From: Cyanobium sp. PCC 7001
Lineage (GTDB): Bacteria > Cyanobacteriota > Cyanobacteriia > PCC-6307 > Cyanobiaceae
Reading direction: 5' to 3'
Assembly (NCBI RefSeq): GCF_000155635.1
Contig: NZ_DS990556.1
Coordinates: 923,051 to 987,050 of the forward strand
DNA length: 64,000 bases
The notes beneath the pieces are model-generated. The model had not been told where the DNA came from and searched no databases. It worked only from the letters and a program-made list of their open reading frames with translations. The position numbers and the translations under genes are program-made. Positions 35,473 to 41,302 of the stretch are shown one piece after another (position 1 is the stretch's first letter; the number at the start of each line of letters is the position of its first letter).

Positions 35473-37890
35473 GTGACCCTGACCCCCACGCGTGCCGGTG
35501 CCAGCGATCAGGCTCCATCTGTCCACGAGAGCGGCATGGCCCCGGAGGGTGCGGCCTCTGCGCGCGCGGCCTCGGCTTCCACCGAGCTCACTTCCACCGA
35601 GCTCAGTGGAGGGTTTCCCGCCACGGCGCCAGCCGCCAATCCCGTCTTCTACCGCACCTATTCCCGCAAGACCTCGAGCGGCCGGGAGAGCTGGCACGAA
35701 GTGGCGGAGCGCAACCTCGAGGGCCTGCGCAAGCTAGGCCACCTGAACGAGGCCGAGGTGCAGCTGCTGCGCCGGATGCAGCAGGAGCAGAAGGCCCTGC
35801 CCTCGGGCCGTTGGCTCTGGATCGGAGGCACCCCCTGGATCGAACAGCCTGAGAACTTCTCCGGGGCCTACAACTGCACGTCCACCAACCTGGTGGACTG
35901 GGAGGCCTTCGGTCTGATGATGGACCTGGCGATGATGGGCTGCGGCACCGGCGCCATCATCGAGCCCCATCTGATCGCCCGCCTGCCGGTGGTGCTCAAC
36001 CGTCTGGTGATCACCGGCGTCACCGACATCGGCTCCACACCACCGGAGGCCCGGCAGGAGCACACCAGCCACACTGTGGACGGCAACCACGTGCACATCA
36101 AGGTGGGGGACACCCGCCGGGGCTGGGTCGACAGCTACCAGCTGCTGCTGGAGCTGTGCAGCGACCAGCGCTTCGGCAGCCCGGAGCAGCCCGGCGAGAT
36201 CCAGGTGAGCGTGGATCTCTCGGATGTGCGTCCCGTGGGCGAAACCCTCAAGGGTTTCGGAGGCATGGCCAACCCGGTGAAGCTCAGGGATCTCTACGGC
36301 CGCGTGGCCCAGATCCTCGCCAAAGCCCTGGGGCGGCAGCTCACGTCGGTGGAGTGCTGCCTGCTGATCGACGAAGCGGCCGTCACGATCGTGGCGGGCA
36401 ACATCCGCCGCAGCGCCGGCATGCGCCAGTTCGCCTCCGACGACAGTGCCGCCGCCACCGCCAAGGACAACCTCTGGCAGCAGGACAGCGACGGCAACTG
36501 GCGCATCGACCCGGAGCGCGATGCCCTGCGCATGGCCAACCACACCCGGGTGTTCCACACCCGGCCCAGCCGCGAGGTGGTGCTGGAGGCGGTGACCAAG
36601 CAGTTCCAGAGCGGTGAGGGCGCCATCCAGTTCGCCCCCGAGGCGATCGCCCGCTCCAACGCCGATCTGCTGCCCACGCCGGAGCTGCGGCAGGAGTTCA
36701 TCGGCATCTACTGCGATCAGGGCCGCGAGCAGGCCGCGGCGTGGCTGCAGCTGCACCATCCGGGCCTCGAGGCCGATGAGCTGGAGCACCGCCTGGGCCG
36801 CTATGGCCTCAATCCCTGCGGCGAGATCCTCGGCGCCGATTTCCACTGCAACCTGGCCGAGATCCATCTCAACCAGATCCATCCCACCGATTTCCAGGCC
36901 CAGGAGGATGCGTTCCGGGCCGGGGGCATCGCCGTGGCCTGCCTCCTCAACCACCGCTTCGAGGTGGAGCGCTACCGCCAGAGCCGGGCCTGGGATCCGA
37001 TCGTGGGGGTGAGCTTCACCGGCCTGTTCGACTTCTTCGTGCATGCCTTCGGCACACCCTGGCTGCGCTGGTGGGAGGCCGGCCGGCCCGACAGCGACGA
37101 AGGCCGGGCGTTCCGCGCCCGCGAAGCCGATTACCTCAGCCGCTGGAAGGCGATCGTGCACGAGGCGGTGTGGGAATACTGCGACCGCCACGGCATCCGC
37201 CGGCCCAACCGCTGCACCACCGTGCAGCCCGCCGGCACCAAGAGCCTGCTCACCGGCGCCTCCCCCGGCTGGCATCCCCCCAAGGCGCAGCGCTTCATCC
37301 GCCGCATCACCTTCCGCAAGAACGATCCGGTGGCTCTGGCCTGCCTGGACTACGGCTACGCGATCGTGCCATCCCAGTCCGACAAGGACGAGCAGGGCCG
37401 GCTGCTGGATGACCCGTTCGATCCCCGCTGCACCGAGTGGCTGGTGGAGATCCCCACCGAAGTGAGCTGGGCCAACATTCCCGGTGCCGATGCGGTGGAG
37501 ATCAACAACTTCTCGGCCCTGGCCCAGTTCGACTTCTACATGCAAGTGCAGCAGCACTACACGGCCCACAACACCTCCGCCACGGTGGAGTTCCGGGAGC
37601 ATGAGATCGAACCACTGGCTGAGGCAATTCACCACGCCATCGACCAAGGGCACGGCTACATCTCCGCCGCCCTGCTGGCCCGCTTCGATGCCAATGCCAC
37701 CTTCCCCCGCCTGCCCTTCGAACCGATCGACCTGGCCACCTACCAGCGGCTGAACAGCGAAGTGGAAGGGCGCCGGCGCACGGCGGACTTCTTCGAGGCC
37801 CTCCAGCGCTACGACGGTGGGGAACTGCAGGAAGCCGGGCCGGCCGGATGCGACTCCGACAAGTGCCTGCTGCCGCTGGCCAAGCCCTGA
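35473..37890 (+). CDS. nrdJ: Adenosylcobalamin-dependent ribonucleoside-triphosphate reductase (class II, monomeric)
   Basis: The 805-residue product makes dNTPs from NTPs without needing oxygen. The catalytic core shows GAYNCTSTNL, MMGCGTGAI, and GLNPCGEILG with the thiyl-radical cysteine and adjacent glutamate. QPAGTKSLLTGASPG is typical of the Lactobacillus leichmannii-type monomer. The C-terminal CDSDKC supplies the shuttle thiols. GTG 35473 is chosen because it starts the chain at TLTPTRAG; ATG 35536 is the next option. Codons upstream of that overlap prfC antisense and are not coding. Confidence 0.96.
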   Translation: MTLTPTRAGASDQAPSVHESGMAPEGAASARAASASTELTSTELSGGFPATAPAANPVFYRTYSRKTSSGRESWHEVAERNLEGLRKLGHLNEAEVQLLRRMQQEQKALPSGRWLWIGGTPWIEQPENFSGAYNCTSTNLVDWEAFGLMMDLAMMGCGTGAIIEPHLIARLPVVLNRLVITGVTDIGSTPPEARQEHTSHTVDGNHVHIKVGDTRRGWVDSYQLLLELCSDQRFGSPEQPGEIQVSVDLSDVRPVGETLKGFGGMANPVKLRDLYGRVAQILAKALGRQLTSVECCLLIDEAAVTIVAGNIRRSAGMRQFASDDSAAATAKDNLWQQDSDGNWRIDPERDALRMANHTRVFHTRPSREVVLEAVTKQFQSGEGAIQFAPEAIARSNADLLPTPELRQEFIGIYCDQGREQAAAWLQLHHPGLEADELEHRLGRYGLNPCGEILGADFHCNLAEIHLNQIHPTDFQAQEDAFRAGGIAVACLLNHRFEVERYRQSRAWDPIVGVSFTGLFDFFVHAFGTPWLRWWEAGRPDSDEGRAFRAREADYLSRWKAIVHEAVWEYCDRHGIRRPNRCTTVQPAGTKSLLTGASPGWHPPKAQRFIRRITFRKNDPVALACLDYGYAIVPSQSDKDEQGRLLDDPFDPRCTEWLVEIPTEVSWANIPGADAVEINNFSALAQFDFYMQVQQHYTAHNTSATVEFREHEIEPLAEAIHHAIDQGHGYISAALLARFDANATFPRLPFEPIDLATYQRLNSEVEGRRRTADFFEALQRYDGGELQEAGPAGCDSDKCLLPLAKP

Positions 37891-37936: not shown

Positions 37937-38764
37937 TCAGGCAGAAGCGACGGGCGGAGGGGCCGATGTTTTGTAGCAGTCTCGCCCGGAATGCTTGGCT
38001 TCGTAGAGCGCCTGATCGGCTCGCGCGAAGGTGTTGGTGTAAAGCTCGCTGGGAGCGTGCTGGGCCACGCCGATGCTCACCGTGAGGCTCAGCTCTTCGC
38101 TTCCGGCCTTGACCCGAAGATGTCTCACCATGTCCAGGATTCGCTGGGCAATGATCTCTGCCGTTTCAAGGCCGGTATCCACGAACAGGGCCAGAAACTC
38201 CTCCCCTCCCCAGCGGGCACACAAATCAAACTCCCGCACACAGGATTTCAGGACGGCCGCGAGCTCGACAAGAACCTGATCGCCGGTTGTGTGGCCGTAG
38301 CTGTCGTTGATCCGCTTGAAATTATCCACATCGATCAAGGCCAGCGAGTAGGTGGAGCCGTAGCGGGTGGTGCGGGCATCCTCGGCTCGGCAGCGCTCTG
38401 AGATCAGACGGCGATTGGGCACGCCGGTGAGAATGTCATGGGTGGCGGAAAGCTGAAGCGCGTCGTTGCGCTGCTCCATTGCCTCAAGATGTTGATCCAC
38501 CTGGCGTACGTTGCGCGTGAGCGAACGCACCTGGCGGTCATACCGCCTGGAAAGATCGAAAACGTGCTCGTGAAAGAGAGATTGGTAACGATCGGAAATC
38601 TTGATGATCCGCTCCAGCCGCTGCTGCTGGGCCTTGCTGCGCTCCAACAACTCGGCCAAAGCCAGACGCAGAGGGTGGTCTGCGTAGGAAGGATTGTCCA
38701 GCAGTGCCGTGATCCGTTCTTCGAATTGCTGATCCGACTCTGATCTCGGCTGGGCGCGCGTCAT
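37937..38764 (-). CDS. siaD: Diguanylate cyclase, SiaD-like
   Basis: A 275-residue protein. Residues 35-105 form a long helical stalk; the GGDEF domain follows (THDILTGVPNRRL, IDVDNFKRINDSYGH). The active site is GGEEF at 186-190, and RxxD at 177-180 lies five residues before it, the canonical inhibitory site for c-di-GMP. The domain thus looks catalytically intact. In Pseudomonas aeruginosa SiaC binds the stalk of SiaD to activate it. It is the last gene of a four-gene run with a 4-nt gap to siaC. Confidence 0.88.
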   Translation of the reverse strand: MTRAQPRSESDQQFEERITALLDNPSYADHPLRLALAELLERSKAQQQRLERIIKISDRYQSLFHEHVFDLSRRYDRQVRSLTRNVRQVDQHLEAMEQRNDALQLSATHDILTGVPNRRLISERCRAEDARTTRYGSTYSLALIDVDNFKRINDSYGHTTGDQVLVELAAVLKSCVREFDLCARWGGEEFLALFVDTGLETAEIIAQRILDMVRHLRVKAGSEELSLTVSIGVAQHAPSELYTNTFARADQALYEAKHSGRDCYKTSAPPPVASA

Positions 38765-38768
38765 GGTC

Positions 38769-39203
38769 TCAGACCATCCGGATGTCGAAAGGGAAGGTGT
38801 AGTCCTCCTTGAACTCTTCGCCCATTTCCAGCGAGCGATGGTTGCCTTCGTCCCAGAGCCAGGTCACGGTGAGTTCCCGCCCCCCGTCGGAGGCCTCCTG
38901 AATGGCATCGAAGATTTCAATCATGCCCCGTACGCTGCTGGTGTTGAGGTAAGCCAGCTGCAATTCCACATCCAGGGGCTTGCTGGTTTCATTCAGGTAG
39001 GCGCACACCCAGGAGATCACCTGGTCAAACAGTTCATGGGCATTTTCGGGATAGGATTCGCCCGCCATGGACAGACGCCCCATCTGCCAGTCGCCGCGCA
39101 CATAGGGCGAACTGGAGGTGGGAGCGAGGTTGAGATCCGATGTTGTCGTGCTGCTGGGGCTCACGGATGGGGAATCGGAGAGTCGTTCAGGGGGCTTCAT
39201 CAT
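38769..39203 (-). CDS. siaC: SiaC-like protein (DUF1987)
   Basis: The 144-residue protein closely follows P. aeruginosa SiaC: GDWQMGRLSMAGESYPENAHELF, LAYLNTSSVRGMIEIFD and EEFKEDYTFPFDI. Thr88 in YLNTSS corresponds to the residue that SiaB phosphorylates and SiaA dephosphorylates. The first 30 residues are a Ser/Thr-rich extension. Unphosphorylated SiaC is known to activate the cyclase SiaD. It is followed by siaD after 4 nt and preceded by siaB by 6 nt. Confidence 0.9.
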   Translation of the reverse strand: MMKPPERLSDSPSVSPSSTTTSDLNLAPTSSSPYVRGDWQMGRLSMAGESYPENAHELFDQVISWVCAYLNETSKPLDVELQLAYLNTSSVRGMIEIFDAIQEASDGGRELTVTWLWDEGNHRSLEMGEEFKEDYTFPFDIRMV

Positions 39204-39209
39204 GTCGGA

Positions 39210-39785
39210 TCAGATCGTGGCACGGATGGCAAAGAACGCGTTGCCCCCAAGCCAGGCACCCAGACCGCACTGCAGCGGAGCCGTGGACTTCCTCGCGATC
39301 TCGATCAGCCCCAGCCCGGCCCCACGGCCTGGCACCTGCACGCGAGGCTGCCTGAGTTGCTGCTTGTAGAGCTGCTTGAGTTGCTGTTTGTCCAAGCCTG
39401 CCAGATAGTTGACGCGCTCTTCCAAGGCTACTCCGTGGGCGGATTCCACAATGTTTCCAGCTGACACCTGGTACCTTCCATCGGCGGTTTCCGCAATCAC
39501 CACGGTGGCGAGTGACTCGGCGTCCTGAAAGCCGTTGGCTTTCACATAGTTGACAATATTCTGACTCATCTCAATATAAACACTGAACACGTCGATTGCT
39601 GCCGGGCTTCGATCAGACGTGGATTCAATGTGCTGACGCAGGGCCACACCGATTTCTGAGATGAGAGTGCGGGTAACGGGCGCATTGAAACTGATCAGAA
39701 TCCGCTCTGCGAGAAAAAAATCCCTCAACGACGCCAGACCGGTCTGGAGCTCGGTACCCGAAGCGGTCGCGGAAAGATTGAGCAT
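39210..39785 (-). CDS. siaB: SiaB-like protein kinase
   Basis: The product has 191 residues from ATG 39785; a TTG at 39818 would add 11. It is a GHKL-type kinase of the SiaB family: DVFSVYIEMSQNIVNYV contains the N-box Glu and Asn, and VPGRGAGLGLIEIARKS is the G-box. Upstream, ILISFNAPVTRTLISEIGVALRQ matches the SiaB N-terminal fold. Its expected job is to phosphorylate SiaC on a threonine and so switch off diguanylate cyclase. The coding DNA is AT-rich for this genome. Confidence 0.86.
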   Translation of the reverse strand: MLNLSATASGTELQTGLASLRDFFLAERILISFNAPVTRTLISEIGVALRQHIESTSDRSPAAIDVFSVYIEMSQNIVNYVKANGFQDAESLATVVIAETADGRYQVSAGNIVESAHGVALEERVNYLAGLDKQQLKQLYKQQLRQPRVQVPGRGAGLGLIEIARKSTAPLQCGLGAWLGGNAFFAIRATI

Positions 39786-39865
39786 CACCTGGGCGACCAC
39801 AGGAGCCAAGTTTTGCAAATGGTAACGAGCTCAGGCACGGGCGCCAGTGGGCGGTGTGGGCCCGA

Positions 39866-41035
39866 TCACACCAACCGGAAGGCCAGCATGGTGATGTCAT
39901 CCCGCTGGGGGTGATCGCCCATGTGGTGGAGGATTGCCCTGTGAATCGCCTCTGCCTGCTTCGGCAAGGGTTCGGCACTGGTCTGCTGGATCAACCGTTG
40001 AAAACCTTCCCGGCCAAGACCAAAGCCGCGGTGACCGCCCGCCTGATCCAGAAGTCCATCGGTGGTGAGGTAGTAGGTGCCACCCTCCACCATCGGAATG
40101 GCATGGTCGTGGAACGAGCCGATCCGCCGGGACCACAGGGAGCAGGAATCCCCGTTCACGACCTGCATGGACTGAGCATCACTCCAGTAGAGGGAGATGC
40201 GGGCTCCGGAAAAGCGCAGGAGCCGGGCCTCGAAGTCGAGGTACACCATGCCGGCGTCCATGGAGGTGGCGATCACCCGCGACCGTTGCGCCTCGCTGAG
40301 CACATCCCCCATGTCCGCGTTCATGGTCTGCAGCACCCGGGCCGGCGAACGGATCCCCACCTGCTGGATGGAGCGATCGAGGCCAGCGCGGGCGAGCATG
40401 GTCATCATCGCCCCGGGCACACCGTGGCCAGCACAATCAGCGATCCCAATCAGGCAGTGGTCACCATCTTCGTGGAAGAGGTAATAATCGCCACCGACGA
40501 TGTCTCGGGGCTTCCAGATCACGAAGTGATCATCACCGAAGCGCTCGGAAATCTGGCGATCCGGCAGGATCGAGCGCTGCAGCAGCGCGGCATAGCGAAT
40601 GGAATCATCCACCTGCTTGTTCGCCGCCCTGAGCTCGCGATTGGTGTCATCGAGCTGCGCCATCGCTTGACGCTGCCTCTGCAGAAGCGTATTGAAGGCT
40701 TCAACGAGTTTGCCCACTTCATCCCCTCCGTCGACCGTCAGCAACTCGGTGGCCTTGTCCGGTGAAAAGGCGATGGCGTACGTGGCCCGCACGAGGCGGC
40801 GCAGTGGATTGACCACGCGCCGGGAGATGATCTGATAGGAGATGGCCACACCGATGACCAGCAGCAAGGCCAGGTAGAAGGTGGTGTAGGCGTTGACCTC
40901 TGTGGAGCCCGGGGTGCGAATCACCTCCCAGGCTGAAAGGATCAAGTAACCAAGAACAAAGCCGTTGAGGACGGCCAGCAGAAGGAAAACTTGCTGAATG
41001 GAAAGGTTCTGCCCACCTCCGTATTGCCTCGCCAT
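39866..41035 (-). CDS. siaA: SiaA-like membrane PP2C phosphatase with HAMP domain
   Basis: The 389-residue protein has TM1 (about residues 10-34), an exposed loop of only about 12-15 residues, and TM2 (about 48-70). A HAMP domain (RRVVNPLRRLVRATYAI) and coiled coil follow, then a PPM/SpoIIE phosphatase domain: PRDIVGGDYYLF, IGIADCAGHGVPGAMMTM, TDGLLDQAGG and RDDITMLAFRL carry the metal-binding aspartates. Pseudomonas SiaA is much longer because of a large periplasmic sensor, so this version probably senses through the membrane or a partner. It heads the siaABCD run. Confidence 0.87.
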   Translation of the reverse strand: MARQYGGGQNLSIQQVFLLLAVLNGFVLGYLILSAWEVIRTPGSTEVNAYTTFYLALLLVIGVAISYQIISRRVVNPLRRLVRATYAIAFSPDKATELLTVDGGDEVGKLVEAFNTLLQRQRQAMAQLDDTNRELRAANKQVDDSIRYAALLQRSILPDRQISERFGDDHFVIWKPRDIVGGDYYLFHEDGDHCLIGIADCAGHGVPGAMMTMLARAGLDRSIQQVGIRSPARVLQTMNADMGDVLSEAQRSRVIATSMDAGMVYLDFEARLLRFSGARISLYWSDAQSMQVVNGDSCSLWSRRIGSFHDHAIPMVEGGTYYLTTDGLLDQAGGHRGFGLGREGFQRLIQQTSAEPLPKQAEAIHRAILHHMGDHPQRDDITMLAFRLV

Positions 41036-41217
41036 GGCGCAGCACCTCAAGCCCACACCCTAGCCAGTCACCCCCTGGCCTCGTATCCGGATCCGGAAGC
41101 CTGCTCCGCTCCAGCCGGCGGCCCGGGCCAGGCATGAGAGAATGCCCGAACCGTTAGGGGATCCCCGTGGAGCTTCCTGCGGAGCCCCATCGAGCTCAAC
41201 CGAGCGGTGGCGCGTGA

Positions 41218-41302
41218 GGAGAGGTGGTCGAGTGGTTGATGGCTCCGGTCTTGAAAACCGGCGACCCGCAAGGGTCCGTGGGTTCGAATCCCACCCTCTC
41301 CG
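41218..41302 (+). tRNA. tRNA-Ser (UGA)
   Basis: An 85-nt class II tRNA. The acceptor stem GGAGAGG pairs with CCTCTCC and is followed by discriminator G. The anticodon loop CTTGAAA gives TGA at 41252-41254. A long variable arm (GACCCGCAAGGGTC region) and the T-loop GGTTCGAATCC are present. CCA is not encoded. It lies 182 nt from siaA in divergent orientation. Confidence 0.95.

Follow-up and report, generated by a model that had tools for sequence, protein, structure and literature searches.

What does a SiaABCD-like set of genes do in a picocyanobacterium, and should it be expected to work as its counterpart in Pseudomonas does? The question is raised by four consecutive minus-strand genes in a stretch of 64,000 nucleotides from Cyanobium sp. 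PCC 7001, which we refer to as the window and to which all coordinates apply. The relevant features are as follows.

35500..37890, plus strand: nrdJ, adenosylcobalamin-dependent ribonucleotide reductase (TIGR02505, 908.8 bits); start position provisional; left border of the insertion site
37937..38764, minus strand: siaD, 275 aa, stalked diguanylate cyclase with GGEEF active site and RxxD I-site
38486..38506, minus strand: GGDEF-proximal SiaC-docking position, SiaD residues 87-93; RQVDQHL replaces RISDRYQ, motif lost
38582..38602, minus strand: distal SiaC-docking motif KISDRYQ, SiaD residues 55-61, intact
38769..39203, minus strand: siaC, 144 aa, phospho-switch protein
38940..38942, minus strand: codon of SiaC Thr88, predicted phosphosite in YLNTSS, equivalent by alignment to T68 of P. 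aeruginosa
39210..39818, minus strand: siaB, GHKL-like kinase (DUF6272 / SiaB family); uncertain TTG start; homology from residue 28
39866..41035, minus strand: siaA, 389 aa read from ATG, with GTG at 41056 as alternative start; membrane PP2C/SpoIIE-type phosphatase with two TM helices, HAMP, coiled coil and phosphatase
40841..41005, minus strand: SiaA TM1, short loop and TM2, residues 18-72 of the 396-aa reading, by hydropathy comparison
41218..41302, plus strand: tRNA-Ser(UGA), by ARAGORN and Rfam; right border of the insertion site

Family identity of the four genes

The notion that these are Sia-family genes in the Sia order, as a first-pass annotation had proposed, is in agreement with profiles, PDB matches and motifs alike. 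SiaD reaches 305.8 bits against the stalked-cyclase equivalog NF038266 (cut-off 290) and SiaC 167.1 bits against NF038265 (cut-off 150; PF09345, E 5e-36), and SiaB scores 174 bits against the subfamily profile NF038262 (cut-off 85; PF19788, E 2e-35), so that the proposed placement of SiaB and SiaC is upheld, with the qualification that SiaB stays just below the cut-off of the equivalog NF038264 (209.7 bits against 225; the SiaB of the relative L044 has 266). The top PDB sequence matches are 6k4e, a P. aeruginosa Sia structure, for SiaA (E 7e-88), 6kko_A for SiaB (E 1e-45) and 6kko_C/6k4f for SiaC (E 3e-40), and SiaD matches 7e6g both by sequence (E 5e-71) and by its predicted model, the best Foldseek match of which is 7e6g_A (E 2.4e-30). 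The curated profiles and PDB matches rule out a chance resemblance to Sia proteins.

Furthermore, SiaB contains the motif IEMSQN with Glu83 at the position of the catalytic E61 of P. aeruginosa, SiaC keeps YLNTSS including Thr88, and SiaD has both the GGEEF active site and the RxxD I-site (REFD), the last two having been called intact from the outset. SiaA is recognizably a HAMP-PP2C protein with an acidic metal site, as seen from its Pfam matches (SpoIIE, E 3e-19; HAMP, E 1e-10) and from the conserved motifs GGDYY/DCAGHG/TTDG/QRDD. The order A-B-C-D and the intergenic gaps of 47, 6 and 4 nt point to one putative operon; a promoter and terminator scan gave signals at or below chance level, and the Rfam scan matched the tRNA and no other RNA. 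At the level of sequence we can hence regard it as confirmed that 37937-41035 (minus strand) of the window carries a SiaABCD cassette, and one that is functional-looking.

The cassette is like P. aeruginosa SiaABCD (6K4E, 6K4F, 6KKO, 6KKP, 7E6G) in its four proteins, gene order and catalytic residues, in the predicted phospho-threonine of YLNTSS and in the stalked GGEEF cyclase with RxxD, but it differs in that SiaA has no periplasmic domain of ~280 aa and SiaD only the distal docking motif, and also in its cyanobacterial host and nrdJ/tRNA-Ser site. The term complete, which had been applied to it, is therefore fitting for the gene set and overstated for the protein parts. The siaABCD cassettes of Halomonas, Marinomonas, Ectothiorhodospira, Telmatospirillum and other Proteobacteria have the same genes in the same order and two recognisable docking motifs, and wherever a full sequence is available their SiaA extends over about 660-790 aa from stop to stop, whereas the cyanobacterial SiaA is short. 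More distant on a SiaB+SiaC tree are the Azospirillum-type SiaBC, in which the common SiaB/SiaC core has different partners (SpoIIE phosphatase, histidine kinase and diguanylate cyclase), and the SiaB/SiaC pair of Bernardetia, which has the common partner-switching core and no adjacent SiaD. A literature search found no paper describing Sia in cyanobacteria, and as far as the literature found shows the system is new to them; a c-di-GMP switch controlled by a phospho-threonine and experimentally known from Pseudomonas is thereby extended to photosynthetic picocyanobacteria.

Two departures from the Pseudomonas system

The first departure concerns SiaA, which scores 396.8 bits against the full-length equivalog NF038263 (cut-off 700); the shortfall is due solely to the first 288 model positions, which have no counterpart here, the match covering positions 289-657 of 658. 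Start regions were inspected in the 29 relatives whose siaA is intact at its 5' end, and the periplasmic domain is missing from every cyanobacterial SiaA of this kind; the hydropathy spacing between TM1 and TM2 is ~277-290 residues in proteobacterial SiaA versus roughly 13-24 in those cyanobacterial copies where two separate helices are called. In agreement with this, an AF2 model (mean pLDDT 78, from an alignment of 13 sequences) predicts a pair of long helices at the N-terminus, followed by HAMP, coiled coil and phosphatase. A sensor encoded on a separate upstream ORF was considered and is ruled out, since the other intact SiaAs are likewise without it and since the 183 bp between siaA and the start of the upstream tRNA-Ser leave no room for such an ORF. 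The temperature/membrane response of P. aeruginosa requires the first 336 residues of SiaA, and on these residues rests a recent claim that the protein responds to perturbation of the membrane (PMC12834913). With the periplasmic sensor absent, the input to cyanobacterial SiaA must therefore come from elsewhere. Since the periplasmic part is deleted and the TM helices are kept, their contributions to SiaA sensing become separable, and the cyanobacterial cassettes are in this sense natural variants for testing the published Sia mechanism.

The second departure is confined to the window. SiaC of P. aeruginosa binds two motifs on the SiaD stalk, a distal one (S50/Q54) and a proximal one (S82/Q86), which contact SiaC T68, and mutation of the proximal motif (S82A/Q86A) lowers activity and leaves biofilm unrestored (PMC8457831). 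Among 68 SiaDs the proximal motif ISDxYQ is intact in 67, the window being the only loss, and the distal motif of the window is textbook (KISDRYQSL), so that one docking motif is kept and the other lost. Conversely, L042, L055, L056 and L068 have lost the distal core, L054 is a doubtful case, and none of the 68 lacks both motifs. The window deviates at two of the 39 SiaD columns conserved to at least 97%, and both lie in the proximal core (p 0.004 for random placement). A frameshift is ruled out as the cause, since the stretch aligns without gaps and its flanking residues fit, and the change is therefore one of substitutions within a stalk helix (residues 33-108) that the structure model predicts to be continuous. 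The published 2:4 SiaD:SiaC complex (PMC8457831) is testable with naturally occurring distal-only (window) and proximal-only (L042, L055, L056, L068) cyclases. It should also be mentioned that in L042 (7606-8436, genome G069) the SiaD stalk contains 22 inserted residues, together with a run of alanines at the position of distal docking.

Distribution, insertion site and c-di-GMP background

Of 400 Cyanobiaceae genomes sampled, 32 contain SiaC (PF09345), and these belong to 6 of 59 genera. In a sample of the whole phylum, comprising 386 genomes of which 377 are of high quality, strong SiaC matches are confined to this family. In the window's genus 4 of 13 genomes have SiaD above the cut-off. 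The host is a picocyanobacterium of the Cyanobiaceae, as had been guessed from the letters, and the idea that the cassette might be routine in relatives can be dismissed. In all 31 relatives with surrounding sequence siaA-B-C-D occur in the same order, including L039, in which siaA is cut by the contig end, and L057 (G200), which is broken, with an interrupted siaA frame and a TAA inside siaC that reflect either decay or an assembly error.

The nearest cassettes outside the cyanobacteria are those of Halomonas, Marinomonas, Pseudomonas, Ectothiorhodospira, Azoarcus and other bacterial genomes. The suggested tree comparison with Proteobacteria, based on 825 columns, separates the 30 cyanobacterial cassettes from the others by a branch with support 100, and the same clade is recovered in the SiaB+SiaC tree with outgroup (100/100). 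The outgroup tree draws this clade inside Proteobacteria, but the data are equally compatible with Proteobacteria as one clade of their own (AU p 0.55), and the nesting is thus not significant. The distribution nonetheless makes a single transfer from Proteobacteria to Cyanobiaceae the most likely history, the direction being the part we infer.

The cassettes mostly occupy one site. Convergent nrdJ lies beside siaD in the window and in 27 of the 31 relatives (those without it include L038, L043 and L055). On the siaA side, every relative except the one truncated by its contig end (30 of 31) has the tRNA-Ser, 73 bp to 2.7 kb away from the cassette. In sia-less genomes such as G072, G099, G045 and G051 the site is empty, the tRNA-Ser(UGA) following nrdJ after 50-80 bp, and other sia-less relatives have larger spacers. 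In the close relatives G195 (with sia) and G045 (without) the flanks are 92-93% identical in DNA, and the entire cassette is cleanly absent from G045. The Na/Ca exchanger and pentapeptide protein that lie between siaA and tRNA-Ser in one large clade were considered as sensor or output and set aside, there being no evident link. In G072, the closest sia-less relative (L212), about 7 kb of other DNA separate the tRNA-Ser (1192-1276) from PPK2 (8846), an interval of less than 1 kb in the window, and G072 hence has another insertion beside that tRNA.

The notion that the cassette is self-contained in a c-di-GMP-poor genome has to be abandoned. Seven GGDEF and four EAL domains lie above the cut-off, which rules out SiaD as the sole c-di-GMP enzyme, and the GGDEF set consists of SiaD, one CHASE-PAS, one GAF, one stand-alone, two GGDEF-EAL and one degenerate KaiB-like/PAS protein. 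Among 101 genomes of the family, the seven with sia have 7-31 GGDEF domains, the window genome having the fewest of the sampled ones, and the 94 without comprise 24 with 1-11 and 70 with none; the cassette therefore belongs to c-di-GMP-rich Cyanobium-like genomes. The general rarity of such enzymes in picocyanobacteria, which had made the cassette appear notable, is true of Prochlorococcus and some Synechococcus, where loss of c-di-GMP signalling is reported (PMC4284465), but not of Cyanobium-like genomes. Receptors had not been visible beside the cassette, and candidates do exist elsewhere in the genome, namely a weak PilZ protein and an MshEN-containing T2SS/T4P ATPase; a ComFB receptor was not found in the genome. 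Within the window's genus (G000, G121, G168, G192) SiaD-profile/GGDEF matches range from 0 to 28 per genome, an unusually labile repertoire. A 413-aa protein (L007:691-1929, plus strand; G000:C1 near 312619-313014) combines a KaiB-like domain (PF07689, 32.4 bits, cut-off 27) with PAS and a degenerate GGDEF domain without GGDEF motif, and is possibly a clock-linked c-di-GMP receptor or a relic.

Proposed working and alternative explanations

We consider it quite probable that this is the SiaABCD of a cyanobacterial sub-lineage, which entered once at nrdJ/tRNA-Ser(UGA), was inherited and repeatedly lost, and works in a Pseudomonas-like manner. By homology to the mechanism described in Pseudomonas (PMC8457831, PMC7647112, PMC12834913), SiaB would phosphorylate SiaC on Thr88 and thereby keep it away from SiaD, and SiaA would strip the phosphate from SiaC. 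Unphosphorylated SiaC would then dock on the coiled-coil stalk of SiaD and assemble the active dimer, whereupon c-di-GMP would rise and in turn restrain SiaD via the RxxD site. SiaA might receive its input from the state of the membrane, through its pair of TM helices, the short loop joining them and HAMP, or alternatively through cytoplasmic ATP and gene dosage. Window SiaC would dock only at the distal motif, so that a 2:2 instead of a 2:4 SiaD:SiaC complex and weaker activation are to be expected. The more specific proposal that cyanobacterial SiaA reads membrane/energy state via TM-HAMP and that window SiaD is a single-site cyclase with two SiaC on its distal motif is a tentative one, which we rate as somewhat less probable than even; if true, the lineage would show which parts of the Pseudomonas system, sensor and four-SiaC complex, are dispensable.

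A history in which Cyanobiaceae received the cassette several times independently, at a hotspot beside tRNA-Ser, instead of once with subsequent losses, would explain the patchy presence, the six changes that the sia+ label requires on the nrdJ tree, and the nesting of the window among sisters (G072, G099, G030) that are without sia. The cassettes nevertheless form one clade with a common sensor-less SiaA, and most have the nrdJ-siaD junction in common, and separate transfers are for us an improbable explanation. Several losses of the cassette are the simplest reading, and members of the family may also have exchanged it by way of the conserved flanks.

The sia-less sisters also bear on whether the window cassette is decaying or partly uncoupled in a lineage losing the system, with a SiaD that lacks its dominant SiaC site and is constitutively low or silent. 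The copy could be impaired, since it sits on a long end branch (0.74 versus a median of 0.14) and has lost, alone among those compared, a docking motif important in P. aeruginosa; its SiaA and SiaB furthermore deviate at otherwise invariant columns more than any other complete row, its genome is the lowest in GGDEF domains of the sampled ones with sia, and a frankly broken copy is known in L057/G200. However, the four ORFs are intact and retain all catalytic residues, Thr88 and the GGEEF and RxxD sites, the distal motif is unimpaired, single-motif SiaDs are found in other lineages, and the concentration of both SiaD deviations in one functional motif looks directed rather than like general decay. 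Decay of the whole is thus rather unlikely, and for the loss of the proximal motif itself the sequence fits either tuning or decay. The same loss might instead suggest that SiaC cycles on Thr88 but controls another target, SiaD being governed through its N-terminal part or at the level of expression, and SiaB/SiaC pairs without adjacent SiaD, as in Bernardetia, do indicate that the module can have other targets. Such rewiring is nonetheless highly improbable in view of the retention of SiaD in the operon in 31 of 31 relatives and of a SiaC motif in every SiaD examined.
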